From Anaerolineaceae bacterium (GTDB lineage: Bacteria > Chloroflexota > Anaerolineae > Anaerolineales > UBA11657), in NCBI GenBank assembly GCA_003569365.1, contig BGOS01000004.1, positions 97,029 through 161,028 on the forward strand: a DNA stretch of 64,000 nucleotides, in the 5' to 3' direction. Under the pieces are notes generated by a model. It saw nothing but the letters and a program-made list of their open reading frames with translations, had not been told where the DNA came from and made no database searches. Below, piece by piece: positions 28,880-43,927 of the stretch; position 1 is the stretch's first letter; the number at the start of each line of letters is the position of its first letter. Both the position numbers and the translations under genes were made by a program.

Positions 28880-30315
28880 TCATGCGGCAGCGGGAGCTGC
28901 TGCCTGCTTCAAAGCACCGGTGATGCGATTACTGCCGCCACCATTGTCAACAGCCTCAAATTGAGAAGCTGATAAATAAACGCCAAGGTCATTCACGGAG
29001 CGCGCCGCGTACGCGCCAAAGCGCTCGCGCTTGCCGCCATCGCGGCCATTGGCCGCACGTTCCAGCGCCGGCAGCAAGCCAAAGTTGGCCTTCATCGGCT
29101 GAAAGTTGTCCGGGTCCGCATGGGTCACATACCAGCATAACGCCCCCAACATTGTCGTCGCCGGCAGCGTCAAAAGCTCTTCGCCCGCCAGCAGCCGCGC
29201 AGCATTTATGCCGGCCATCAAACCAGTGGCCACGTTTCCCATGTAACCCTCAACGCCGGTGATTTGACCCGCAAAAAAAATATCCGCGCGCTGCTGCGCT
29301 TGCAATGTGGGCAGCAGCGTTCGCGGGCTGTTTATAAACGTATTGCGATGCAGCATGCCATAGCGCGCGAACCGCGCGTGCGCCAACCCGGGAATAAGGC
29401 GCAGCACGCGTTGCTGTTCACTGAAAGTGAGATTGGTTTGGAAGCCAACCAGGTTGTACAGCGAACCGGCCAGATTATCCTGGCGCAGCTGAACCACCGC
29501 GTACGGTCTCCGCCCGGTATGCGGGTCGCGCAATCCCACCGCACGCATCGGTCCGTACGCCAGCGATTCCAACCCACGCTCTGCAATGATCTCCACCGGC
29601 AGACAGCTCTCAAAAAATTTATCCGGGCCAGCCCGCACCCCGCTGGCAATGTCCGCCTCAAACTCACGCAGTGCAATGCGCTCGGCCTTCACGAGCTCCG
29701 CCACAAAAATGTCGTACTCTGCACGTGTCAGCGGGCAGTTCAAATAGTCGCCGTCGGGTACCTCACCCCGCCATAACGCGAGGCTCGGAAAGCAATTGAA
29801 AGATCCACGCTCTCGTACTCAACGATCGGCGCGAGGGCGTCATAAAAGTAAAGATGCGGACCGCCCAGCCACTGCTGCAAATCCGCCGCCAGCGCGGGCG
29901 AAGTAAGCGGGCCGCTGGCCACAATTGCCGGTCCCGCCGGCAGCCGTTCCACCTCAGAGCGCACCAGCTCAATTCGGGGATGCCCCTGCACGCGCTCCGT
30001 AACAAGCTCCGCAAACGCTTCCCGGTCCACAGCAAGCGCCCCACCCGCCGGCACAGCTGTCTCCTCCGCACAGGCCAAAAGAAAACTGCCCATCGTTCGC
30101 AGCTCGGTCTTAAGTACCCCGGAGGCGCGGTCCGGCAGATTTGAGCCGAGGGAATTGGAGCAAACCAGCTCTGCCAGCCGATCCGTGGCATGTGCGCCTG
30201 TGGGACGCTTGGGGCGCATTTCATGCAACAAGACCTGCAAACCGCGCTGAGCGGCCTGCCAAGCCGCTTCAGAGCCCGCCAAACCGCCCCCGATCACCAC
30301 CAGATCCGGTTTCAT
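28880..30315 (-). CDS. trmFO: Methylenetetrahydrofolate--tRNA (uracil-5-)-methyltransferase TrmFO, frameshifted
   Basis: The N-terminal half (from ATG 30315) has the FAD site [17 protein letters not shown] and [19 protein letters not shown]. It runs to [10 protein letters not shown], then the frame is lost. The C-terminal half resumes as [18 protein letters not shown], with [40 protein letters not shown] and [20 protein letters not shown]. Adding one G to the GGGG run (plus-strand CCCC 29766-29769) restores a full-length enzyme of about 478 residues. The enzyme makes m5U54 in tRNA using folate and FADH2. A TTG at 29743 would be the only start for a separate C-terminal piece, which is not a natural domain boundary. 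Confidence 0.92.
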
Positions 30316-30327: not shown

Positions 30328-30362
30328 CCACGGCCAGCGCGCGGCCTCGCCAAAAACTCATC

Positions 30363-30378
30363 TGGCACGCATCTTGCA
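30363..30378 (+). promoter_or_regulatory. Sigma-54 (-24/-12) promoter of rpoN
   Basis: TGGCACG (30363-30369), four bases, TTGCA (30374-30378): an exact match to the sigma-54 consensus TGGCACG-N4-TTGCW. Transcription should start near 30389, leaving a leader of about 34 bases with a GAGG Shine-Dalgarno at 30413. It stands directly upstream of the sigma-54 gene itself, so autoregulation is the simple reading. Confidence 0.85.
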
Positions 30379-30422
30379 ACTACGTAAATTATCGGTTAAA
30401 CTTTTCTCGCTCGAGGCACCTT

Positions 30423-31835
30423 ATGCTAAACGCCACGCTCTCCAATCGCAATACTGCCAGCCAGCGGCAAATGCCGTCTGCGCACATGCTCAAGACTATG
30501 GAGCTGTTGGCCTGCCCCGTGGGCGAGCTCGAAGCCGAAGTTGAACGCGAGCTAAGCGAGAACCCGGCCTTGCGCCTGGTTGAAGAAATGCGTTGCCCGG
30601 AGTGCCGGCGCCGCGTCCATTCCCTGCCCTGCCCGGCCTGCATGGGAAAAATGACAACCGAAAATGCGCTGGTCTTCGTATCGCCGCGCACTTCACCCAG
30701 CTCCGCTGTCACTCAATCCGAGTATGACGAATCCCCGATTGACCGCGTGCAACAGTCAATCACGCTCTCCGAACATGTGCTGCAGCAAGTAGCGCCGCTA
30801 GTATCAGCCACTCAGCGCGAGATTGCCGTCTACATTCTCGAGCGGCTGGACAACCGCGGCTTTCTGCCAGAAACTCCGGCAGAAGTGGCGCACTACCTGA
30901 AAGTTCCGGTCGCCGACGTGCAATTGGTGCTTGAGAAAATCAATCAAGCCGACCCGGTTGGGGTGGCTGCCAGTGGCGTGCGTGAATGCCTCCAGTTGCA
31001 AGTGCGGGCGCTCGAAGCGGAAGGCACTGCCCACCCGCTTGCGAACTCTATCCTGACTGATCACTTTGAAATTCTGGCTTCCGCAGATATTGTCGCGCTG
31101 GCACGCGCGTGCGGCCAACCACTCGCAATCGTTAAAGCCGCGGTCGAGTTTATCCAGAAGCGCCTGTCGCCCAATCCGGCGCGGGCGCGCTGGACCCATC
31201 AAGATGCTGGCGATCAGCGCTTCTATCAGCCGGATGTCTTGATCACCCGCGACCCGCACCGGCCGGATGGCCCGCTGCTGGTTGAAGTATTTTCAGCAGC
31301 CAGCGGCTGGCTGGAAGTAGACCCTGAACTTAAAACCATGACCAAAGAGATCAACGACCCCAGCCAAAAGCTGGAGTGGCGCCAGCACCTGGAGCGCGCC
31401 GAGCTGTTCGTAAAGTGCATGCGCCAGCGCAACAATGCGATGCGCTTGATCGTGACCAGCGTTGTGCAGCGGCAGTATAATTTCATTGTGGGTACAAATG
31501 CGGATTACCAGCCCATGACCCGCGCAGAACTGGCAAAAGAATTGAAGTACAACGAGTCCACCATTTCGCGCGCTGTGGCAGACAAACGCGTGCAGATGCC
31601 CAGCGGACGCATGGTGCGCATGGATCAATTCTTTGATCGTTCGTTGGCAGTGCGCGATGCCGTGCGCGAGATTGTAAAAGCCGAACAAAGCGCACTGACA
31701 GATGACCAAATCTCTCTGGCCCTGAAGCAGTTCGGCTACTCCGTCGCCCGCCGCACAGTCGCAAAGTACCGCTCAATGGAATCCATTCAGCCCGCAAATA
31801 TGAGAAGCCGCGCTGCCGCCCGCGTTCCTGCATGA
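30423..31835 (+). CDS. rpoN: RNA polymerase sigma-54 factor RpoN with an inserted zinc-ribbon-like motif
   Basis: 470 residues from the ATG at 30423 (GAGG six bases upstream); the frame stays open further 5', but that part is antisense to trmFO and precedes the promoter. Region I binds activators (AHMLKTMELLACPVGELEAE, ELSENPALRLVEE). Immediately after it come four cysteines, C58-x2-C61-x8-C70-x2-C73, a zinc-ribbon-like insertion not present in the E. coli protein. The core-binding region has TLSEHVLQQVA, ILERLDNRGFLPET and NQADPVGVAASGVRECLQLQ; the DNA-binding part has YNESTISRAVADKRVQMPSG and the RpoN box ARRTVAKYR at 442-450. The stop overlaps the kinase start (ATGA). Confidence 0.93.
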   Translation: MLNATLSNRNTASQRQMPSAHMLKTMELLACPVGELEAEVERELSENPALRLVEEMRCPECRRRVHSLPCPACMGKMTTENALVFVSPRTSPSSAVTQSEYDESPIDRVQQSITLSEHVLQQVAPLVSATQREIAVYILERLDNRGFLPETPAEVAHYLKVPVADVQLVLEKINQADPVGVAASGVRECLQLQVRALEAEGTAHPLANSILTDHFEILASADIVALARACGQPLAIVKAAVEFIQKRLSPNPARARWTHQDAGDQRFYQPDVLITRDPHRPDGPLLVEVFSAASGWLEVDPELKTMTKEINDPSQKLEWRQHLERAELFVKCMRQRNNAMRLIVTSVVQRQYNFIVGTNADYQPMTRAELAKELKYNESTISRAVADKRVQMPSGRMVRMDQFFDRSLAVRDAVREIVKAEQSALTDDQISLALKQFGYSVARRTVAKYRSMESIQPANMRSRAAARVPA

Positions 31836-33841
31836 CCTTTTCGCAGCTGCGCACACCCCTGGCATTATTTGGTTCCCGCTCTAAACCGCGCGCCACAGAT
31901 CCGCGCTTCCAGCACCTGGCAGACCAGCTGCCGCAGCTGATCCTGCTTGTATCGCCGCACGCCGATAGCGTACTTGCGGCCAATGCGCATGCATTGGAAT
32001 TACTTGGTCGCAGCCGCGAAGAAGTTTGCGCGGCGCCGCTCTCCACATTGCTCGTGGAAAACGCCAGCGTACTTGTACGCGATTTGAAAGGATTGGCGCC
32101 TGGCGCCACGCTGCTACTTGAAAATTCGCAGTGGCATGGCAAGGCTGGAGCGCTTGCAAGCATCGACTTGCAAGCCACGTGCTCAGAGATCGACGATCAA
32201 TTGGTAGTAATGCTAATGGGTACGAGCGCGGCCACCATGCCCGTGCCAGCTTCTGCCGCAAACCCTGCGCCTGCTCAAACGCTTGAAACACTGCTGGCGC
32301 TGCAATCAGCCTTGCGTGAAGTCTCGGCATCACCAGCCCAAAATGCTGCTGCTTACTGCCGGCAACTGCTGGGAGCGGACGCCGTTGCTATTTACGAATG
32401 CACACCAAGTGCCGGCGCGCCAAAGCTGCTTGCGTCACAACCAACGAATATATTTCCCGCATACCTCCCGGCCGAAGACGCTGCCAGCAGCCTAACTGCT
32501 TGGGAGTTTATTGCGGGCGCACCACCTCTTTCGGTGCTTTATCAGTTTGCAAAGACGTCCGGCTGCACCGCGATCTATGGGCACCCAATCGCGCACGCTG
32601 GCAGCCCGATTGGCATTTTGATTACAGGTTTTAGAGTCGCTCCGCCTGATGGCGCTCGCAAAGATCTCACGAGTGGAGCCGCCAAACTGGCAGCACTCTT
32701 TATTGCACCACAAACTTCTGCCACGCCGGCAACCCAGGAAAGTCCGGTTGTGCAATTACTAGAAGACCGGCTTGACCTCATTTTCCAAGAGGCAGTCGAA
32801 GCCATCATTTGGGTTAATCCGGCGGGCACGGTAGAGCGCTTGAACGCAGCCGCGGAACGCCTGTTGGGCTACGCGCCGGTTGAGGTCGCTGGCATGGATC
32901 TGCAGGATATTTTGGTGGCGTCCACACCAGCGGCCAGCGAAGTTCTGCACAGCCTCGCGCGCGGACAGAATTACCGGCAGGAGGAAGTGAGCGTCATCCG
33001 GCGCGACGGAACGCAGGCCAGTACCGCACTTGCCGGGCTGCCTTTCTTTGATTCGGCCGGCAACGCAGACGGCGGCCTCGTGGTTTTGGTGGACCATAGC
33101 GAAAGCAAAGCGGTTGATGCACGCGTGCACCACTTGCAGCAACGCGCGTGGCTGGGCGATCTCTCCGCGGTTTTTGCGCATGAGATCCGCAACCCGCTGA
33201 ACAATATTGTCACGGGCTTACAGCTGCTCAAACACAAACTTGATGCAGCAGCGCCAGCGCAAAGCATTCTCGACGAGATGCTGCCCGAGGCACACCGCAT
33301 TGCGGAGCTTGTGAAGAACACGCTTTTGATTGTGCAGCCCAGCGAGCTGCACTTTGAGGCGGTGGACCTCAACCAGCTGCTTGACCGGCTGGCCTTCCGC
33401 TGGGGTGAACGGCTGCAGCGCCGCAAAATATTATGCCAGGTGGATGTGTCCGCAGCCACACCGCGTGCACTCGCGGATCTGCGCTGCATGGAGCATGTGC
33501 TCACCAACCTGCTGGCGAACGCGATGCAGGCACTGCCGGAGAGCGGCGGCAGCATTACACTTACCGCGCGCACCGCGCCGCCAAAACCGGAGCGTGCCGG
33601 CCCACACGTTGAGATCAATGTGGCAGACACCGGGCCGGGTATTCCACCCGAAGTAGTGGCCCGCATTTTTGAACCGTTCTATACCACCAAGGCCAGCGAA
33701 GGCACCGGCCTTGGGCTTGCCATCGCGCAGCGCTTTGTGGCCGCGCACAAGGGCACGCTCACCTGCCAGAGTTTCATCGGAGTGGGCACAGCCTTCACCA
33801 TAACCCTGCCGGCCGCGCGTACAGACCAGACCGCTGCCTAA
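31832..33841 (+). CDS. Soluble PAS/GAF sensor histidine kinase (NtrB/AtoS-like)
   Basis: 669 residues with no membrane helix or signal peptide, so it senses a cytosolic cue. Order: PAS-like region (about 25-130), GAF-like region (about 150-290), PAS (about 305-425, with EAIIWVNPAGTVERLNAAAE), HisKA with phospho-acceptor His450 in FAHEIRNPLNNIVTG, and HATPase_c with N box LTNLLANAMQAL, G1 DTGPGIP, F box IFEPFYTTK and G2 GTGLGLAIAQRFV. The H-box and short spacing are typical of kinases that drive NtrC-type regulators. It is translationally coupled to rpoN and lies 19 bases before the regulator gene. Confidence 0.93.
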   Translation: MTFSQLRTPLALFGSRSKPRATDPRFQHLADQLPQLILLVSPHADSVLAANAHALELLGRSREEVCAAPLSTLLVENASVLVRDLKGLAPGATLLLENSQWHGKAGALASIDLQATCSEIDDQLVVMLMGTSAATMPVPASAANPAPAQTLETLLALQSALREVSASPAQNAAAYCRQLLGADAVAIYECTPSAGAPKLLASQPTNIFPAYLPAEDAASSLTAWEFIAGAPPLSVLYQFAKTSGCTAIYGHPIAHAGSPIGILITGFRVAPPDGARKDLTSGAAKLAALFIAPQTSATPATQESPVVQLLEDRLDLIFQEAVEAIIWVNPAGTVERLNAAAERLLGYAPVEVAGMDLQDILVASTPAASEVLHSLARGQNYRQEEVSVIRRDGTQASTALAGLPFFDSAGNADGGLVVLVDHSESKAVDARVHHLQQRAWLGDLSAVFAHEIRNPLNNIVTGLQLLKHKLDAAAPAQSILDEMLPEAHRIAELVKNTLLIVQPSELHFEAVDLNQLLDRLAFRWGERLQRRKILCQVDVSAATPRALADLRCMEHVLTNLLANAMQALPESGGSITLTARTAPPKPERAGPHVEINVADTGPGIPPEVVARIFEPFYTTKASEGTGLGLAIAQRFVAAHKGTLTCQSFIGVGTAFTITLPAARTDQTAA

Positions 33842-33860: not shown

Positions 33861-35039
33861 ATGCCCACCGTACTGATCGTCGAAGACGAAGCGCCAGCCC
33901 GCAAATTTTTGCAGGGGATTCTGGAAGCACACGGCTATGAAACCGTTGCAGCGGAAAACCTTGCGGCAGCCGGCAAGGTGCTCGAGCAGCACGCTGCAGA
34001 CATCGTCCTGCTGGATGTGCGCCTGCCCGACGGCAGCGGCCTCAGCTTGATGGAGCGCGCATTGCGCGACCAACCTGGTCTGCCCATCATCGTAGCCACT
34101 GGCCACGGAGATATTGAAATGGCGGTTGAGGCAATGAAGGCTGGCGCAGCAGACTTCATCAGCAAACCAATCGACGAAGCGCGGTTGGTGGGTGCCCTGC
34201 GGCGCGCCGCGGACCATGTGGCCTTGCAGCGCGAAACTGTGCGCTTGCGCAGCGAGCGCTGGGAAAACCATCAATGGGTCCCAAGTACTTCGCCGCAAAT
34301 GAAAGAGGTGCTGAGCATCATTGAGCGCGTGGCAAAGACCGATGCGAACGTGCTTATTCTGGGGGAAAGTGGCACCGGCAAAAATATGGTGGCTGACCTG
34401 ATTCATCGGAATAGTGCACGCATGCGCGGCAACCAAACTCCCGTGGTGCTAAACTGCCCGACCATCGCCGAACACCTGCTGGAAAGCGAGTTGTTTGGCC
34501 ATGAAGCGAACGCATTCACGGGCGCCGGTACAAAACGCAAGCGCGGCGTAATTGAAACCGCCGAAGGCAACACGCTCTTCCTTGATGAAATTTCGAGCAT
34601 GAAACTGGAGCTGCAGGCAAAGCTTCTGCGCGCCCTTGAAGAACGCTTGCTGCGCCGCGTCGGCGGCACCACGGAAGTTAAAGTGGACTTTCGGTTGATC
34701 TCAGCCACCAACCACGAACTAACCAAAATGATCGCTGACGGCAGCTTCCGCGAGGATTTGTACTGGCGGCTGCGCACCGTTGAAATCCGGATGCCACGCC
34801 TGCGCGACCGGCGCGAGGACATCCCCGCACTCACCGGCGCGATGCTGGCACGCCTGGCGCAGTTGCGTGGTGAAAACTCAATCGGCGTGAGCAGTCGCGC
34901 GATGGATGCGCTGCGCGCCTATGCGTGGCCCGGCAATATCCGCGAGCTGCTGCATGCATTGGAACGCGCCATGCTATTTTGCGATGGAGATCAACTTGAA
35001 ATTGGGCATCTGCCCCAAGAGGTTCGCGAAGCCCTCTAG
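33861..35039 (+). CDS. NtrC-type sigma-54 activator without a DNA-binding domain
   Basis: 392 residues. Receiver domain 1-120 with phospho-acceptor Asp52 (VLLDVRLPDGSG) and the Lys of FISKPIDEA. AAA+ domain about 135-385: Walker A GESGTGKN (168-175), the sigma-54-contacting loop as NAFTGA (217-222; canonical GAFTGA), Walker B LFLDEI (239-244), sensor regions SATNHEL and PWR-like EDLYWRLRTVEIRMP, and WPGNIREL. The chain stops at VREAL right after the AAA+ lid, so the Fis-type helix-turn-helix of usual NtrC proteins (about 450-480 residues) is absent. Helicobacter FlgR and Chlamydia CtcC/AtoC are known activators of this kind. The 132 bases to the next gene hold no hidden HTH in any frame. Confidence 0.93.
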   Translation: MPTVLIVEDEAPARKFLQGILEAHGYETVAAENLAAAGKVLEQHAADIVLLDVRLPDGSGLSLMERALRDQPGLPIIVATGHGDIEMAVEAMKAGAADFISKPIDEARLVGALRRAADHVALQRETVRLRSERWENHQWVPSTSPQMKEVLSIIERVAKTDANVLILGESGTGKNMVADLIHRNSARMRGNQTPVVLNCPTIAEHLLESELFGHEANAFTGAGTKRKRGVIETAEGNTLFLDEISSMKLELQAKLLRALEERLLRRVGGTTEVKVDFRLISATNHELTKMIADGSFREDLYWRLRTVEIRMPRLRDRREDIPALTGAMLARLAQLRGENSIGVSSRAMDALRAYAWPGNIRELLHALERAMLFCDGDQLEIGHLPQEVREAL

Positions 35040-35105
35040 CGATTGACCCCAGCACTGGCATTTTCCCGCCGGCGCAATTTCATCCCCAATCCGCCCGCTT
35101 TTGGC

Positions 35106-35120
35106 GGCATACATCTTGCA
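35106..35120 (+). promoter_or_regulatory. Sigma-54 (-24/-12) promoter of the membrane-protein/TPR operon
   Basis: GGCATA, four bases, TTGCA with the invariant GG (35106-35107) and GC (35118-35119) separated by ten bases. It differs from the consensus only at the T before GG and at two tolerated bases, and shares CATCTTGCA with the rpoN promoter. Expected transcription start is near 35131, 41 bases before the ATG at 35172. A small hairpin (arms 35091-35095 and 35103-35107) overlaps its -24 half. Confidence 0.75.
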
Positions 35121-35171: not shown

Positions 35172-35483
35172 ATGCCAATAAACTCAGAAGCATTGCGCCT
35201 TTTGGTGGCGGTCGTCAACTTATTGTTCGGCGCCGTCTTCTTGATTGCCGGTCTCCGCAAGATGCTCGCGGCCGAATACTTGCCGGCCATGCGCGCGCTC
35301 GCAGCGCAGTCCGCAAAGATCAGCCAGAAAAGCCTCACCGAAGACATGGCTCAAATCGCACAAGCCGCATCGAAATTATGCGACTCCGTTACGCGGATGG
35401 TGCGCACCTCAAGCGGCAGTGGCGCATTTCTGGTCTTGGTCGGGATGATATTCCTCGGTTCATCGTACCTGATGATTGCTTAA
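35172..35483 (+). CDS. Small two-helix membrane protein of unknown function
   Basis: 103 residues from ATG 35172 with GGAG six bases upstream. Two predicted membrane helices (LLVAVVNLLFGAVFLIAGL near 10-28 and GAFLVLVGMIFLGSSYLMI near 84-102) flank a roughly 50-residue amphipathic, probably coiled segment (MRALAAQSAKISQKSLTEDM). No family is recognised. It lies just downstream of a sigma-54-type promoter and 21 bases before the giant TPR gene, so it is likely the first gene of the sigma-54-controlled operon and may anchor the TPR protein at the membrane (inference). Confidence 0.7.
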   Translation: MPINSEALRLLVAVVNLLFGAVFLIAGLRKMLAAEYLPAMRALAAQSAKISQKSLTEDMAQIAQAASKLCDSVTRMVRTSSGSGAFLVLVGMIFLGSSYLMIA

Positions 35484-35504
35484 CCAATCGCAAGTGGAGT
35501 GCAC

Positions 35505-38500
35505 ATGAAGCTGTCTATGTTTGAAATCACCTGGCAGATTGCAGACTTGCTGCCGGAATCTACGCTGGCCGAAGTTCTGCGCCGCATCCGCGTTGCGCCC
35601 GAACTGTGGGCTGAGCTGCACGACGCGGCAATCCTACCGGCATGGCTGCAGCGGCCAGGAACCCAAAAACTAGATAGCTGGCAACCCGTTCATTTCCAAC
35701 TTTGGCTGTACGGTCGGGCTAATCCCACAGCCGGACCTGACACAACGATTTGGCTGCAAACGGAACCTGGTCAAGCCGCAATAAGCAGCGCACTCGAAAG
35801 CGTGATGAGCGCATCAGCTGCCGAAGCCATCAACCTCCAGACAAAGGTGCTCGCGGCATTCGCCTTCGCCCAGCAACTGGCAAGCAGCAATTGTGCAGCG
35901 ACGCTGCAGGCTGCGCTTGGCGCGCCGCAGCACTGGCAAGCAGTGTTCACTTGCGCCTATGCAATCTCAAGCACTGGCAGCGTGATGACAGAGCAGCTTG
36001 GCGCAAACGGCAACGCGCAGCTGGCCGCGCTGCTCGTTGAGGCAGCGCTGTCCAACACTGCGCCGGAAATGGCGGCGCAATCCCTGCAAGACAACCTGCA
36101 CTCCACGGCAGCGCCCGAATTCTGCGCCGCAATCGCAGCTGTCCTTGCGAAGCACGGGCACCGCGATCTTGGCGCCGCCTTGTTAGCAAGCACCGTTGGC
36201 GCCCATGGCCAGTGCACTACCGGACCCGCAATTACCGCCACCCGCCAAATAACAAAAGCGCTCGAAAGCAGTACATTGCATCTATACGGCGAAGCTGCTG
36301 CCCATGGCGAACATATGCAGGCAGCTGCCGAAGCAGCGGCGCACCTCTACCGTGACCTTGCGCTTGAGCTTGGCCAGCAGCAAGTGCAGTCCGACCCGCC
36401 CGCTGCGATCAAACATTTGGAAGCCGCCCGCAGCCTGGGCGCACCACAAGACACTTGGCTCGCACCTCTGGCAGCGGCGCATCTTGCAATTGGCCAACAA
36501 ACAACTTGCAAGCAGTTGCTGCAGACGAACCCCAGCCCCACCGTCCGCGAATTGATTGTCACGGCACGCCTGTATCTAATTGAGAATGAGCGCGCTGCGG
36601 CGCTGCGCTGTGCAACCGAAGCATTGGACCGGGGCGCGGATGAAAAATGCGCAAGTGATATTGTCTCGCTGGCTGAAACGGCGCGCGCGCCGGAATTAGC
36701 CATCCGCGCTGCCCGGCGCCTGCTGGAGCTGCAGCCCCACTCCGCCACCACCCATCTCGTCACTGAGGCACTTGCGCAAATTGCCCGCCACTCAATTGAA
36801 CCAGCCCGCGAAGCTGCATTTATGGCTGTTTCAGCCGACCCCACAAGTGTGGATGCGCGCGCCGCCTACGCCCGCAGTTTGGCGGAAACGGTTCCGGGAG
36901 TTCCCCCGGAATACGATTCAGCGCTGGACCATTGGCAGCGCATCACACAAACAACGCCGTTGTTTCTCCCGGCGCAACTTGGATTTGCGCGCTGCGCACT
37001 AGCCGCGTCCAAGCCTGAACTTGCGCTATCCATTGCTGAGCGCGCATTCGCACTTTTCACAGCCGCCGCTGCTGGCGCCGCGCCAGATGCCACCAACCTT
37101 GCCGAACTAAAGATTGTGATCGGTGTAGCCCATGCGGCAGCCGGCAACATTACGGAAGGCAAATCGCAATTGGTTACCGCAACGGAAATGGCTCCTGCTC
37201 TGCCGGCTACCTGGCAGGCGCTCGCCGAGCTGCACGCGAGCAACGGCGAAATTGCGCCTGCGCTCACCGTGGCTGAACATGGATTGAAATGCTCACAACC
37301 GGCTAGCGGGCACGCGTACGGCGAACTTTGGCTCGCACTCGCTCGTCTGCGCGTCGAATACGGCCAGCCGCAATTTGCGCTCGAAGCGCTGGCAGCTGCC
37401 AATACCCACCTGCCCTTTGACTCGAGGGTGCAGCACTTGATCGGCACTGTGCAACTCAGCTGTGGTCTTGATGCCGACGCTGCGCACACACTAGCAGAAG
37501 CTGCCAACCTCGACACAAATGAACCGCGCATCTGCTTTGACCTCGGCCGTGCGCAGGAACAATCCGAACCTGCCCGCGCACTTGCCAGCTACCAACGCGC
37601 GCTGGACTTGGGAATATCAGAATCAACAATCAACATTCGCATTGGCCGCCTTGCGCAGCGCCTCGGGCAAAACATGCTTGCAAGACGCGCGCTGCAGCAA
37701 GCCTACAGCGATGGAGATGCTGGCGCAGAAACAGTTTTGGCTTTGGGAACAGCACTCGAAAATGACGCCGAATGGACCGAAGCCCGCGCGTTGTACCAAG
37801 CAGCGCTCCACAGCGATCCACAAAATAGTGAGCTGATTGCCCGGCTTGGAAACTGCTGCCTGGAACTTGGCCAACCCGCCGCTGCGATCGCTGTGTTGGC
37901 GCCCGCCGCTGAGAACAATTTAGATGACGCCGGCCTGCAGTCTGCAATTGGCGCAGCCTATGCCGCAACCGGCCTGTGGGAAGAAGCCCTGCTCTCCTTC
38001 GAGCAGGCTCTGCGCACCGCCCCGCAAGACGCACGCTTGCTGCGCTGGGGAGCAACCGCTGCCGCCACAGTGCAGCGCTATCCGCAAGCCATCGAACTAT
38101 TGCGGAAGGCGCTGCAAGCTGAACCGGACAATGCCGAGCTTCAGGCGCTGCTGGGGCGCTGCTTGGAAGCCACGGGCGAGAAGGCTGCAGCCCACACTGC
38201 CTACTTGCGGGCAGCCGACATCGCCCCTCACGACGCAAAGCATCTGGTCGAGCTCGGGGACAGCTGGCTCGGCACTGGATCGCAGCCGCTTGCATTGGCC
38301 GCCTATGAACGCGCAGCACTCGCGGCGCCGCGCAACCCGGTGGTACTGTCGACACTAGCAGAGGCGCAGCTCAATGCCGGCAACACGCAAACAGCCATCG
38401 AGAGCTTCATCAGCGCTGCCGCTGCCTGCACCAACGATGAACACGCCCCGCTGCACGCCCAATGCCTGCGCCGCATTGCAGAATCCTGGGCGGCACTTGG

Positions 38501-40751
38501 AAACACGGACCGGGCTCTCGACGCATGGAAAGCCGCCGCCGAAACTTTTCCAATGGACGCAGCGATCCACTCCGCGCTGGGCAACAGCTTGCTGGCCGCG
38601 GGCCAGGCCGCAGCCAGCCAGGCCGCCCACGCCACCGCAGCCAGACTAGAGCGAACCCAACCTTCACATCTATTGGCCGCAGCCAAAGCAGCAATTGCAG
38701 CCGGTGACAGTGCGGCATCGAATACATTCGCGCAACAAGCGGCAAGCCTGCCGCTCGAGCAGCCGGAAGAACTTGGCACGCTTGGACACCTGCACCATCA
38801 ATTGGGTGATCTGCAAAAGTCACTGGAGTTCCATCACCGCGCTTGCGCTGCAGCCGGAGACAACCCGGGCAGCCGCGCCACATTGGCACTCGCTCTAGCT
38901 GATGCCGGCGAATTTGCCGAAGCCACCAGCACTGCGCGCGAACTGCTTACCTTGCCAGAAATTCCAACCGGTGTGCTGCTAAAGGCAGCCAGCGCCCTGC
39001 TCCGTGCTGGCGACCCAGCCAATTCAATGCGCGCCTTCGAAACTTTGGCTGCGGGAATCGACGCTGACGGCACGCTTGTGATGCAAGCAGTTTCCGAAAT
39101 TCTGGCCCATCTGGAAGCCGCACAAGACGAGTGCACCGGCCTGAGTGCAATGGAACAGCCGGACTTCGCAGCGCTCACTGCATTTGCGCAGCGCGCAACC
39201 AATCGCGCCCAAGTGCTCGGCGCGGACACATGGCTGGTACACGCCGCGCTTGGCCGCCTGCAGTCGCTATCCGCAGACCTGAACAGTGCGATCCCCACTT
39301 TGGAACGCACCCTGCAATCCCGCTTCGCACCAGAAGCTGCCTGCGCACTGGCCGTTGCAAAAATTGCTGCTGGCGACGCTGCGGCTGCAGCAGAATTACT
39401 GGGTAAAGTCCTGGCCACGAACGCCAACCACCCGCGCGCGCTAATGCTGCTCGCGCGTTGCGCCGCAAATACGGGGAACCGCGAAAGCACAGCCAGCCTA
39501 ATAATTGCAGCGGCTTCCCATCCAGCCCACAACGCATTGGCGCATTTTCAATTTGCGCTTGCACACCTGCACTTGGATGCAACGCCGGAATGTATCACGC
39601 AACTTGAGCAAGCGCTGCGCCTCGCGCCCGAACATGCCGGGTGGCACTTCCATCTTGCACTGCAGCAGGAAACAATTGGCGAGCATCAGGCCGCGCTCGC
39701 CCACTACCAGCAAGCAGTGCATCTGGGGCGCCAGCAACAGCTGCCCGCCCGCCGCCTGGCTGCATTCACTGCCCGGCTTGCGGCAGCCGCGCAAACCGAC
39801 GGCGACTTAACCACGGCGCGCCGCGAATACTTGAACGCCCTGAACCTGCAGCCTGGCATTGCGGCCTGGTGGGTGGCTGCCGGCAGCGCAGCGCTGGGCA
39901 TGCAAGACAACACGGCGGCTGCTCAGGATTTTGAAAAAGCAATCGCGCTGGAGCCACTCGCCGCAGCCGCGCATGTGGGCTGCATGCAGGCAATGCTGGC
40001 CAACGGCGAGGTGACCGCTGCAGAGCGCCATGCACTTACCGCAATCAAAATCGCTCCCTCAAACTCAGAAGCACTGCTCGCGCTTGGCGGCCTTTTTGCA
40101 GCTCGCGGCGCGCACAGCAACGCGCTGCAGGTTCTCGACCAAGCCCTCAGCTTCAACCCGCAATCTGCGACGATCCAAATTGCCAAGGCGCGCGTGCTTG
40201 CCCAAGCCGGGCGCCCGCTGCCAGCATTGGAGTTGCTGAAGCCCCATCTGGGAGATGCCTGCAATGATGCCAGCGTATGGGCCTTTGCTGGCGAGCTTTA
40301 CGCCGGGCAGGAGCTATTCCCGGAGAGCATTGCTGCCTACGAACACGCGACAGAAATTATGCCGCTGGACTTCGCTCATCAGCTGCGGCTGGGCCAGCTG
40401 TGCCGCATCGGAGGCCAACCGGACAAAGCCATTACAAATCTGGAACGAGCGCAAACACTTGCCACCGCCAGCTCCCAACAGGCAGCCGTCCTCACCGAAG
40501 CAGGGCTTGTGTTTGAAGCCCGCCGCCAGTACGACCGCGCCTTTAAATCATTTTCGCAGGCAATTGAATGTGCCCCGCAGCAACCCGACAACTATTTCCG
40601 CGCCGGCCTGGCACTAAAAGGATTGAAGGATTATGCCGAGGCACTCACGATGTTTCAAAAAGCGGTGACGCTGGATCCGAAACACCGCGAAGCACACCGC
40701 CAACTTGCAACGGTGTCAGCACTCGGATTGATGAGCGCCGTGCCCGCCTGA
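35505..40751 (+). CDS. Giant tetratricopeptide-repeat (TPR) protein
   Basis: 1748 residues from ATG 35505 (GGAG at 35496-35499; an in-frame GTG at 35499 lies inside this Shine-Dalgarno). After about 100 non-repetitive residues (IADLLPESTLAEVLRRI) nearly the whole chain is TPR-like helix pairs of 34 residues. Clear units include GLWEEALLSFEQALRTAPQD, YPQAIELLRKALQAEPDNAE, GEKAAAHTAYLRAADIAPHD and DYAEALTMFQKAVTLDPKHR. There is no signal peptide, membrane helix or catalytic domain. A superhelix this long should be a scaffold; the partner is unknown. It is probably co-transcribed with the small membrane protein from the sigma-54-type promoter and is convergent with the carbonic anhydrase gene, 11 bp away. 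Confidence 0.9.
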   Translation: MKLSMFEITWQIADLLPESTLAEVLRRIRVAPELWAELHDAAILPAWLQRPGTQKLDSWQPVHFQLWLYGRANPTAGPDTTIWLQTEPGQAAISSALESVMSASAAEAINLQTKVLAAFAFAQQLASSNCAATLQAALGAPQHWQAVFTCAYAISSTGSVMTEQLGANGNAQLAALLVEAALSNTAPEMAAQSLQDNLHSTAAPEFCAAIAAVLAKHGHRDLGAALLASTVGAHGQCTTGPAITATRQITKALESSTLHLYGEAAAHGEHMQAAAEAAAHLYRDLALELGQQQVQSDPPAAIKHLEAARSLGAPQDTWLAPLAAAHLAIGQQTTCKQLLQTNPSPTVRELIVTARLYLIENERAAALRCATEALDRGADEKCASDIVSLAETARAPELAIRAARRLLELQPHSATTHLVTEALAQIARHSIEPAREAAFMAVSADPTSVDARAAYARSLAETVPGVPPEYDSALDHWQRITQTTPLFLPAQLGFARCALAASKPELALSIAERAFALFTAAAAGAAPDATNLAELKIVIGVAHAAAGNITEGKSQLVTATEMAPALPATWQALAELHASNGEIAPALTVAEHGLKCSQPASGHAYGELWLALARLRVEYGQPQFALEALAAANTHLPFDSRVQHLIGTVQLSCGLDADAAHTLAEAANLDTNEPRICFDLGRAQEQSEPARALASYQRALDLGISESTINIRIGRLAQRLGQNMLARRALQQAYSDGDAGAETVLALGTALENDAEWTEARALYQAALHSDPQNSELIARLGNCCLELGQPAAAIAVLAPAAENNLDDAGLQSAIGAAYAATGLWEEALLSFEQALRTAPQDARLLRWGATAAATVQRYPQAIELLRKALQAEPDNAELQALLGRCLEATGEKAAAHTAYLRAADIAPHDAKHLVELGDSWLGTGSQPLALAAYERAALAAPRNPVVLSTLAEAQLNAGNTQTAIESFISAAAACTNDEHAPLHAQCLRRIAESWAALGNTDRALDAWKAAAETFPMDAAIHSALGNSLLAAGQAAASQAAHATAARLERTQPSHLLAAAKAAIAAGDSAASNTFAQQAASLPLEQPEELGTLGHLHHQLGDLQKSLEFHHRACAAAGDNPGSRATLALALADAGEFAEATSTARELLTLPEIPTGVLLKAASALLRAGDPANSMRAFETLAAGIDADGTLVMQAVSEILAHLEAAQDECTGLSAMEQPDFAALTAFAQRATNRAQVLGADTWLVHAALGRLQSLSADLNSAIPTLERTLQSRFAPEAACALAVAKIAAGDAAAAAELLGKVLATNANHPRALMLLARCAANTGNRESTASLIIAAASHPAHNALAHFQFALAHLHLDATPECITQLEQALRLAPEHAGWHFHLALQQETIGEHQAALAHYQQAVHLGRQQQLPARRLAAFTARLAAAAQTDGDLTTARREYLNALNLQPGIAAWWVAAGSAALGMQDNTAAAQDFEKAIALEPLAAAAHVGCMQAMLANGEVTAAERHALTAIKIAPSNSEALLALGGLFAARGAHSNALQVLDQALSFNPQSATIQIAKARVLAQAGRPLPALELLKPHLGDACNDASVWAFAGELYAGQELFPESIAAYEHATEIMPLDFAHQLRLGQLCRIGGQPDKAITNLERAQTLATASSQQAAVLTEAGLVFEARRQYDRAFKSFSQAIECAPQQPDNYFRAGLALKGLKDYAEALTMFQKAVTLDPKHREAHRQLATVSALGLMSAVPA

Positions 40752-40762
40752 CGGCGCTCGAA

Positions 40763-42091
40763 CTACTTTGTAGCGCTGGTGTCTTGCAGCAGGAACCGCA
40801 CGCCGCGCGGTTGCGGCGGCCGGTTGGTGCCGGTATACACCTTGGTGTAAGCGGCAATCTGCGCCGTATCGAGGTCCATCGGTGTTGTGAGCAATATCCA
40901 GCGCACGCCCTCGCTGCACGGCGGCGTGGTGAGCGAACCCGGATACCGATACGCCCGCCGGTCTGCAGGCAGTAGTTGCATCAGATCCACCGGCGCAGGA
41001 AGATCGTGCGCAACATCCACGTCGGTCGGCACACTGGTTAGCACGGGCGCCAGGCCGGCGCTCGCCGCGCCCGACTGCAGCAGCACACCTACCACCGCCA
41101 GCCCGCCGCCGGCATTCTTGTGCACCAAGTGCAGCTCCATGGCAAAGCTGGCGCCCGCAATAGTGTGCTCACTGGGCGCATGAAAGTGAAATTGCAGCAG
41201 CTCGTGCAAGATGCCATCGACCACAATCGTGTTTCCGTTTCCAGCAGCAAAATTAACTTGAATTGTGTGCCCGTTGTTTATGATTTTGCCCGGCGTGGCT
41301 GCGTATTTGAATAATATGTCAGTGAGGCCCATCTTGAGCGGGTTGACCACATCAATTGGTGACTGCTCAATGCCGCTGTCACAAACCTTGTAGTCCGGGG
41401 ACAGGCTGCCCCAACGCGTGGGGCCGCTGTCGCCAAGGTAAGCCCAATGCACAGCCGAGCTGTGCGCCGCTGCTGCCGGCGCGGCTGCCGGCGCCGCTGC
41501 CACTGCTGCGGCAGTCGTCGGCACCGGCGCTGCAGAATGCGCCGGGGCAGTAGTCGGTGCCGGGGCAGCAGTGGGGGGTGCCGCCACCACCACAGTTGCA
41601 ACGGCCACCGCCGGCATGGCTACAGTTGGAATTGCAGCAGCGACCGCAGCCACTCCCGGGATCATCATGCGCTGCCCGGCACGGATATTCGTGCCACTAA
41701 GTCCGTTTGCGGCCTGAAGCGCGGCGACACTTATCCCAGCCCGCGTCGCAATCTTGAACAGGGTGTCGCCCTTCTTCACCATGTAGGCCGTAGCCTTTGA
41801 GCCGCCAGCTGCCGGCGCGATTGCAGGGCTGGTGGCATTAGCAATTACGCCAGCCGGATTAGGCACTTTGAGCATTTGCCCGGGTTGCAGCACTGTGGTC
41901 ATCAAACGGTTAAGCTCCACAAGCTTGGGAACTGTGGTGCCAAACTTACGCGCAATCGCTGTTAGGCCATCCCCCACCTGCACCACATACACTGTCTCAC
42001 CCTCGGCGGTGACAGCAGAAGGCCCTGCCACAGACCAGATCCCGGCGGCCCAGATGCAAGCCACCACAAGCAATAAAGATAATCGTCTCAT
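40763..42091 (-). CDS. Secreted LysM-alpha-carbonic anhydrase fusion
   Basis: 442 residues. Signal peptide (1-29), LysM 1 (VYVVQVGDGLTAIARKFGTT, residues 34-77), LysM 2 (AYMVKKGDTLFKIATRAGIS, 102-145), an Ala/Pro/Thr linker (150-212) and an alpha-class carbonic anhydrase domain (215-440). The zinc ligands are His302, His304 (QFHFHAPSEHT) and His321 (ELHLVHKN), with the proton-shuttle His275 (NNGHTIQV) and the late motif YPGSLTTPPCSEGVRW, so it should be active on CO2/bicarbonate outside the cell. The LysM modules should hold it on peptidoglycan. Shine-Dalgarno GGAG lies upstream of the ATG. Confidence 0.92.
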   Translation of the reverse strand: MRRLSLLLVVACIWAAGIWSVAGPSAVTAEGETVYVVQVGDGLTAIARKFGTTVPKLVELNRLMTTVLQPGQMLKVPNPAGVIANATSPAIAPAAGGSKATAYMVKKGDTLFKIATRAGISVAALQAANGLSGTNIRAGQRMMIPGVAAVAAAIPTVAMPAVAVATVVVAAPPTAAPAPTTAPAHSAAPVPTTAAAVAAAPAAAPAAAAHSSAVHWAYLGDSGPTRWGSLSPDYKVCDSGIEQSPIDVVNPLKMGLTDILFKYAATPGKIINNGHTIQVNFAAGNGNTIVVDGILHELLQFHFHAPSEHTIAGASFAMELHLVHKNAGGGLAVVGVLLQSGAASAGLAPVLTSVPTDVDVAHDLPAPVDLMQLLPADRRAYRYPGSLTTPPCSEGVRWILLTTPMDLDTAQIAAYTKVYTGTNRPPQPRGVRFLLQDTSATK

Positions 42092-42175: not shown

Positions 42176-43927
42176 CTACTCCTCAAGGCCCACCACCTGC
42201 TTCCAAGCCCCGCGAATCCCATCTTCGTTCACGCCATAATAAATGCGCAAACCATGCGGCGTGCGCTGGCACAAGTCGTAGCGCGCGCTCTCGCCCTTTG
42301 TCGTCTTCTTCACCAGCCCCAGCTCTCCCTGCCAGACCACCTGCGAGCGCTCCAATTGCGGATCGCTCTCGCAGGATGTGACCGCATAGTGCCACAAGCG
42401 CCGCGCAGAACTGCGCGTAACATTCTTGACAACGTTGCCATTGCGCAGATCGCGCATCACATGGTACTTGATGCCGTCGCGCTCCTCAGTCTCCAACACC
42501 TCAACGCCAGTACCGGGCGCCTTTACCGGCTCCGGGCTGCCCACAACAACCGGCACACCGGGCGGGTCCGCAGACAAAACGGGCGGCACTGCGGCCGGGG
42601 CAGTTGGAGCCGCAACGGCTTCACGCTGGCGCAGTACCAGCTGCACAATTTCGTCCCGCACCGCCAGCGAGGTCTCGGCCTCATCCCGCACGTAAATAAG
42701 ATTTTCATCGATTGCGTACGGTGGATCGCCGGCGCGCGGCACCGCAATCCGCACCACCTGCTTGCCCTGTGACAGCAGCGTGTCCAGCGTGCACACCAGC
42801 TTGGGCGTAATTCGCCGCCCGATATCACGCTGCATCGCCTCGATCAATTTTTCCGGCTGCTGGATGCCAAGCGGCTTTTCGCGCGGGTCACGGCTCACGC
42901 CCAGATAAATCACGCCGCCATTCGTATTGGCGAGCGCCCCAACATCGCAAATAATCGCATTCCAAAACCCGCCGCGCTCCGATACCTTGTCGTGAAACTC
43001 CTGCACAATGCTCGAACCTTCTGTGCGTGCACTTTGCAAAAAGTCCACGCCCGGCCCAACGCCGTGGTACGGCCGCGTCTGCGAAAAGTCCGTGCCGAGA
43101 AAAAGTTTCTTGAGTGCCTCAAATGAAACCTCTTCCAGCAGCACTTCCGTTACCCGATCACCCACACCCAAATGCTTGGAGTTGTCTGCATCGCGCATCA
43201 AACGATGCGCATCAGAGCCCTGAATGCAGTGCATGCGCCGCGGATACTCCGGCTTCGAGCCGTTGAAGAAGCGCGCAGTTGTCCGCTCGGTGCGCACATC
43301 AAAGTCGGTCACCTCCAGCGCGTGCAGGCTGGGATCCTGGGTGTATGCAATGCGCGTCTGTCCGCCGTAGCCGGAGCTGCGCATTGCAACCCCGTTAGAC
43401 GAGTTGGCATGCGAAGCAATTGCCAGGCCGCCGGCGGCGTTAATCAGGCGGTAAGCCTGCAGCACATCCGCGGTCGCACCCACCGTGGAAGAACCCTTGT
43501 CGAGCTGGTCCGAGGGCACATTCAAGCTCAGCAGTACATGCTCTAAGTTGCGCAGCGGAGTATCCGGCGAAAAAATTCCGAGAATATGAAATCCAAAAGT
43601 TGCCGTAAACTCAAATCCGGGCAGCACAACCACCTGCTCCAAAAGGTCGCGGTACTCATCCAGCAGCGCACGCTCGGCCGGGACCAGCCGCTGCAACTGC
43701 TCAAGCATCTCAAGATGCGCCAACTCGCGCTGCATGGCGGCGTAGCCCGCCACCGTGTTGTGGTCAGTAAACGCAATCATGTCCAGGCCGCGTGCGTGTG
43801 CCTGGCGCAGAATGTCCACATACGCAACCGTTGGGTCCATGTAGTCACCCGATGCCGGCGTATGCAAATGCAAATCAATGCGCCGCCACTCGCGCTGCTG
43901 GGCACTTGGCTTCTTGCGTCTTCTCAA
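42176..43927 (-). CDS. PHP phosphoesterase domain fused to an AlbA_2/Schlafen-like ATP-binding domain
   Basis: 583 residues from a TTG start with AGGTG upstream. Residues about 15-290 are a PHP domain: metal ligands in [45 protein letters not shown] and QGSDAHRL. Residues about 305-430 resemble AlbA_2 (DUF4062/Schlafen-associated type): [19 protein letters not shown] and [15 protein letters not shown] variable Pro/Ala linker follows, then an 80-residue tail ([38 protein letters not shown]). PHP domains are metal-dependent phosphoesterases or nucleases. The role is unknown; nucleic-acid or nucleotide processing is inferred. Confidence 0.8.

Follow-up and report, generated by a model that had tools for sequence, protein, structure and literature searches.

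A sigma-54-linked gene module of Anaerolineales encoding a giant TPR protein, a caspase-like peptidase and a second FtsZ

Scaffolds built of tetratricopeptide repeats (TPR) are common in machines of the bacterial envelope. In the PEP-CTERM/exosortase system, PrsK, PrsR and PrsT (a kinase, an NtrC-type regulator and a large TPR protein) are encoded together, and MamA of magnetosome gene clusters is a single TPR protein of about 200 residues. Activators of sigma-54 that have no DNA-binding domain are already known from Helicobacter (FlgR) and Chlamydia (CtcC) (PMC3162934, PMC7482065). NACHT/STAND-TPR proteins combined with caspase-like peptidases have been surveyed in multicellular bacteria (PMC7159879, PMC8195603), and a second FtsZ has been reported in 'Ca. 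Atribacteria' RT761 (PMC7736352). The locus described here is made of parts of known kinds, and the literature searched, which misses most subscription journals, yielded neither a description of the complete nine-gene set nor a report of any Anaerolineales locus that joins sigma-54 and FtsZ2.

The window is a stretch of 64,000 nucleotides in the genome of an Anaerolineaceae bacterium (G000; 2.63 Mb, 95.5% complete; window at C4:97029-161028), and positions are those of the window unless a contig is named. It contains the genes for sigma-54 (RPON), a histidine kinase (HK), a sigma-54 activator (EBP), a small membrane protein (SMP) and a giant TPR protein (TPR). In gene maps of relatives within Anaerolineales, these belong to a set of nine, RPON-HK-EBP-SMP-TPR-CHAT-GHL-FTSZ2-M238, whose second FtsZ was reached by tracing other strong sigma-54 sites in the genomes. 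All nine genes stand in one row on one strand in four genomes (G018, G055, G032 and G051); in other genomes the module is split into two or three parts, most of which have a site of their own, and in some Anaerolineales SMP-TPR is distant from HK-EBP but adjoins FtsZ2. In G000, the block CHAT-GHL-FTSZ2-M238 is located at C4:201715-208192 (L104:1216-7693), separated from the TPR gene by about 64 kb. FtsZ2 directly follows GHL in all 76 of the 76 named GTDB loci. Near relatives retrieved through GHL carry the name Anaerolineales, which identifies the order.

The product of rpoN (30420-31835, +) matches the Pfam domains AID, CBD and DBD, all above cut-off, and scores 256 bits against TIGR02395, slightly below the cut-off of 277; its start is probably the ATG at 30420, though the ORF opens at 30141. 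The kinase (31832-33841, +) has PAS, HisKA and HATPase_c domains and is soluble, with no transmembrane segment by hydropathy. The activator (392 aa; 33861-35039, +) is composed of a receiver, an AAA+ domain and its lid, after which the chain stops, and the HTH_8 DNA-binding domain is absent in the Pfam search. Its orthologues have 388-421 aa and a C-terminal end that is alike, while a relative in a sister order retains HTH_8. EBP is the sole convincing sigma-54 activator of G000 (Sigma54_activat, 210 bits), the two other matches (31 and 25 bits) being in ORFs longer than 830 aa, and almost all genomes have the EBP of the module as their single strong activator. Separately, proteins of about 670-700 aa with a strong Sigma54_activat match are encoded at G014:C3, G027:C132 and G058:C30, in genomes where no rpoN was found.

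This arrangement resembles the FlgR and CtcC circuits in having a single dedicated sigma-54 activator with receiver and AAA+ domains that ends before the HTH (PMC3162934, PMC7482065), and the features of such circuits are found here, namely a three-domain rpoN, an activator without HTH_8 and target -24/-12 promoters above background. The regulons of those circuits consist of flagellar or late chlamydial genes, whereas the predicted regulon here consists of SMP-TPR, the C25 peptidase and FtsZ2, and unlike in those circuits, rpoN itself is in an operon with its own sigma-54 site. The cell seems to maintain its only sigma-54 switch for the sake of this module.

Three -24/-12 sites belong to the module in G000. 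The site of rpoN, CTGGCACGCATCTTGCA (30362-30378, +), is near-perfect, with the -12 GC 43 bases before the ATG at 30420; in that of SMP-TPR, GCGGCATACATCTTGCA (35104-35120, +), the -12 GC precedes the start of SMP by 53 bases; and TTGGCACACCTATTGCA (C4:201696-201712) precedes the CHAT-GHL-FTSZ2-M238 block. Since a loose -24/-12 pattern has 629 matches in G000, one such site alone is weak evidence, and conservation in relatives was therefore tested. A relaxed site was found before SMP in 35 of 42 relatives, before rpoN in 30 of 36, and before GHL in 20 of the 21 cases where GHL is the first gene of the operon, while only 7 of 616 unrelated genes of the same loci, taken as non-overlapping gene calls, had one. 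Fisher p is below 1e-30 for each of the three against the control genes, and is only a guide because the sequences are related. SMP retains its site where SMP-TPR stands far from rpoN, its own promoter is kept in 20 of 21 cases where it stands behind EBP, and GHL has a site in 45 of the 52 named GTDB loci where it is not behind CHAT or TPR. This conservation is decisive for the call of these predicted promoters, and the proposal of a sigma-54-type promoter before SMP-TPR, made earlier in a sequence-only reading of the window, is borne out by it.

Sigma-54 sites were seen also at other genes. In G000, the consensus site TTGGCACATAGATTGCA (C23:51365-51381; L107:1366-1382) lies just before an ORF of 188 aa and an FtsI-like PBP gene, about 15 kb before the canonical ftsZ, and the contig of G007 with the canonical ftsZ has no such site. 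In two genomes of one genus (G030, L114; G054, L120), a sigma-54 site precedes a protein of about 365 aa, a possible additional regulon member whose G054 copy has a SnoaL-like domain at its end.

The proteins of the distant block were characterized individually. CHAT (850-950 aa) consists of N-terminal TPR followed by a C25 caspase-like peptidase domain; this second domain matches Peptidase_C25 in 12 of 30 members (best 4e-17) and CHAT in 2 of 30, and His594 and Cys638 are invariant among the members. The protein of G000 itself falls short of the Pfam C25 threshold. GHL (about 440 aa) has no Pfam family, and a profile search against PDB sequences gave no usable match; its structure model (pLDDT 90.7) shows a TIM barrel with a small C-terminal domain and is nearest to glycoside hydrolases, with full-length TM-scores so low that no enzyme activity is claimed. 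M238 is predicted to have an N-terminal helix and an LCP fold (Foldseek gave 33 PDB matches with E <= 0.001, and the named ones are all LCP proteins), and the one member with a Pfam match is below cut-off.

FtsZ2 scores 337.5 bits against the NCBIfam FtsZ equivalog TIGR00065 (cut-off 295.2) and branches as a clade of its own, distinct from canonical FtsZ (support 100/100). The GTP-binding T4 loop is intact in 44 of 44 FtsZ2 sequences, and the C-terminal peptide (LDxPAFLRR-like) is retained in most. The second Asp of the T7 loop, which is catalytic and corresponds to D212 of E. coli, is lost in 37 of the 44 (His 24, Asn 10, Ala 3) and kept in 7, whereas all of 20 canonical copies keep it. G000 has Ala at this position, and the T7 loop in its genus is changed further (QVDFSAV). 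In E. coli, the D212N change of FtsZ leads to stable polymers (PMC12754632). RT761 (PMC7736352), chloroplasts and archaea with FtsZ1 and FtsZ2 are alike in having two FtsZ per cell, one of them outside the dcw cluster; unlike in those pairs, FtsZ2 here is under a predicted sigma-54 promoter, behind a TIM-barrel gene and usually without the T7-loop Asp.

The SMP gene (35172-35483, +) encodes 103 aa with transmembrane segments at residues 10-28 and 85-103 by hydropathy. The TPR gene (35505-40751, +), with an ATG start and a product of 1748 aa, begins 21 bases downstream; from the mechanical GTG start at 35499, the product would be 1750 aa. The length of the TPR protein and the two helices of its neighbour given in the sequence-only reading agree with these coordinates and with hydropathy, and zero transmembrane segments are predicted in the TPR protein. 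The statement of that reading that nearly the whole chain is TPR is too strong. Pfam TPR models match the protein strongly when it is searched whole, and when it is cut into 175-residue pieces the matches run from residue about 567 to the C-terminus, while residues 1-525 have zero Pfam matches; TPR is thus recognisable in two thirds of the chain, but not in the remaining third or so at the N-terminal side. Pfam and NCBIfam profile searches gave no catalytic domain, which agrees with the same reading. MamA (NF040959) was rejected as a family, since its cut-off of 200 bits is passed, at 232 bits, only when six stretches of the 1748-aa chain are added up, and magnetosome genes were absent among the window proteins examined.

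The 32 complete orthologues of the TPR protein have 1694-1925 aa. Of the 61 genomes in the order set, 45 have an SMP homologue, and homologues are present also in other classes. In 21 of 21 pairs measured, the two genes overlap or the gap between the end of SMP and the start of TPR is at most 44 bases; overlaps may be overstated because ORF starts were set mechanically. The dedicated pairing of the two proteins, which had been proposed from the single locus, is kept throughout Anaerolineales and in other Chloroflexota classes. As had also been expected, the pair co-occurs with rpoN in Anaerolineales: among genomes of at least 90% completeness, SMP is present in 32 of the 35 with rpoN versus 1 of the 8 without it. 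Two or more FtsZ are encoded in 34 of these 35, and 7 of the 8 have one FtsZ and no SMP. Genomes without rpoN, SMP and FtsZ2 belong to families f6 and f12 and one genus of f13, so that the loss of the three looks joint and repeated. G012 has rpoN and SMP with one FtsZ found, and G038 has SMP-TPR-FtsZ2 with no rpoN found, possibly because the assemblies are incomplete. Two FtsZ genes were rejected as a marker of the module in general; other Chloroflexota classes often have a duplicate FtsZ and no such module, and thus FtsZ duplication alone does not point to it.

In other classes of the phylum, SMP lies directly before a NACHT-TPR protein of about 2100-2260 aa, followed by CHAT (G189, G197, G213, G306 and G324), or before a TPR gene (G073 and G081), and GHL follows CHAT in G073 and G306. 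NACHT is above cut-off in seven TPR orthologues of other classes, and no matching sigma-54 site was found before SMP there. An intermediate is present in G175 (L284, C33), which belongs to the same class and is outside the order: HK-EBP (with HTH_8)-SMP-a 2124-aa AAA/NACHT-like TPR protein-CHAT (C25)-a divergent FtsZ, with a sigma-54 site at SMP. The coupling to sigma-54 thus was only partly upheld, since outside Anaerolineales SMP-TPR, in its NACHT form, is mostly without sigma-54 sites, while SMP remains beside the TPR gene. This indicates an ancient pairing and a coupling to sigma-54 that is confined to one lineage. Judging from distribution, SMP-TPR-C25 is older than the sigma-54 coupling, and the TPR protein is deduced to descend from, or share descent with, NACHT-TPR proteins.

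A large membrane-associated assembly around the TPR protein, as suggested in the sequence-only reading, is plausible. While the architecture of the module is strong, we give an about even chance to the following function, a membrane-anchored scaffold for the C25 peptidase and FtsZ2 that is switched by a dedicated sigma-54 circuit. As its domains suggest, the soluble kinase would sense a cytoplasmic signal and phosphorylate EBP, which, having no DNA-binding domain, would act from solution to activate sigma-54 polymerase at all -24/-12 promoters of the cell: that of rpoN-HK-EBP, with positive feedback, and those of SMP-TPR and CHAT/GHL-FtsZ2. Consistent with pairing and gene order, SMP may bring the TPR solenoid to the cytoplasmic side of the membrane, where it may in turn hold the TPR-tailed C25 caspase-like peptidase. 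FtsZ2, with the GTP-binding loop and C-terminal peptide kept and the T7-loop Asp usually lost, would form slow-turnover filaments at the same membrane, and together with the TIM-barrel and LCP-fold proteins it could alter division or wall assembly under the kinase signal. The core of scaffold and peptidase would derive from a NACHT-TPR/C25 system that lost its NACHT switch, as the distribution suggests. Points that count against this function are the seven FtsZ2 copies that retain the Asp, the further-changed T7 loop in the genus of G000, the gene content of G012 and G038, the FtsZ duplicates of other classes and the sub-threshold C25 match of the G000 CHAT protein. Such a module would give sigma-54 a function-sized target, with a single sigma factor, activator and regulon, in a part of Chloroflexota for which no description of one was found. 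As it ties a caspase-type peptidase and an NLR-related scaffold to a second FtsZ, it could show how cell division or filament life came to reuse death or surveillance proteins.

More tentatively, and with a distinctly lower chance of being right, an NLR-like NACHT-TPR/caspase surveillance system may have become a sigma-54-switched cell-division device, in which transcriptional control took the place of the NACHT switch, the peptidase and scaffold now acting on or through the GTPase-impaired FtsZ2 at the membrane. If true, this would be a categorically new link of apoptosis-type proteins, sigma-54 and the bacterial cytoskeleton. Since the cultured Anaerolineales Ornatilinea apprima and Leptolinea sp. 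HRD-7 have the GHL-FtsZ2 half, the module is testable.

The same ancestry could mean that the module still serves defence or programmed death, with the TPR sensor freeing the C25 peptidase to cleave SMP, the cleaved SMP perforating or depolarising the membrane, and FtsZ2 acting as a decoy or a division brake. SMP directly 5' of NACHT-TPR-C25 in other classes speaks for this, as do similar domain sets known in conflict systems of multicellular bacteria including Chloroflexi (PMC7159879, PMC8195603). The module is like NACHT/STAND-TPR systems in that a giant TPR protein stands beside a TPR-bearing clan CD peptidase, and in that orthologues in other Chloroflexota classes have NACHT and the same SMP. 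However, the Anaerolineales TPR proteins are shorter, single-copy, order-wide and without NACHT, and the module is linked with rpoN, FtsZ2 and a protein of LCP fold. The caspase-like partner is present, and NACHT/STAND ATPase gave no match in the window protein, whole or piecewise. A search with PADLOC gave no credible match to SMP, TPR, CHAT, GHL or FtsZ2, and anti-phage defence by this criterion was rejected, the matches being weak ones of TPR and ATPase only. We regard the defence explanation as unlikely.

A lesser chance still is given to SMP-TPR as a generic envelope scaffold under sigma-54, for secretion, pilus or polysaccharide export in the manner of PrsT, with the FtsZ operon merely sharing the regulator. 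Envelope machines commonly use TPR scaffolds, NCBIfam gave sub-threshold PrsT and PilW matches, and kinase, NtrC-type regulator and large TPR protein are encoded together here as in PrsK/PrsR/PrsT. Sigma-54 has also been proposed to control the bacterial exterior (PMC3162934), which counts for this explanation. Against it, PrsT (TIGR02917) and membership in the PEP-CTERM system were rejected at 208.6 versus a cut-off of 312.2 bits, the PrsR model is likewise below cut-off, and the partner genes are different: the conserved set has no exosortase, pilus or export genes, and the closest neighbours encode the C25 peptidase and FtsZ2. In addition, the TPR protein has no lipoprotein signal or lipobox, and its N-terminus, MKLSMFEITWQIADLL, has no hydrophobic segment, in agreement with the absence of a signal peptide noted earlier. 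Most improbable is that SMP-TPR is mainly a sensor, a membrane-bound TPR protein signalling to the soluble kinase and closing the sigma-54 loop with the peptidase and FtsZ2 as outputs, since in other classes SMP-TPR is found with neither this kinase nor sigma-54, and in some Anaerolineales it stands far from HK-EBP yet adjoins FtsZ2, even though in many genomes it is directly behind HK-EBP and a kinase without transmembrane segment needs some input.

Three observations concern the genes flanking the locus in the window. TrmFO at 28880-30315 (-) is encoded by two ORFs (287 and 191 aa) with a 4-base overlap, which may be a frameshift, an assembly error or a real split. On the other side, an alpha-type carbonic anhydrase is fused to LysM repeats (40763-42091, -), and a Schlafen AlbA_2 domain is joined to a PHP-like (TrlF/Ppl-like) N-terminus (42176-43927, -).
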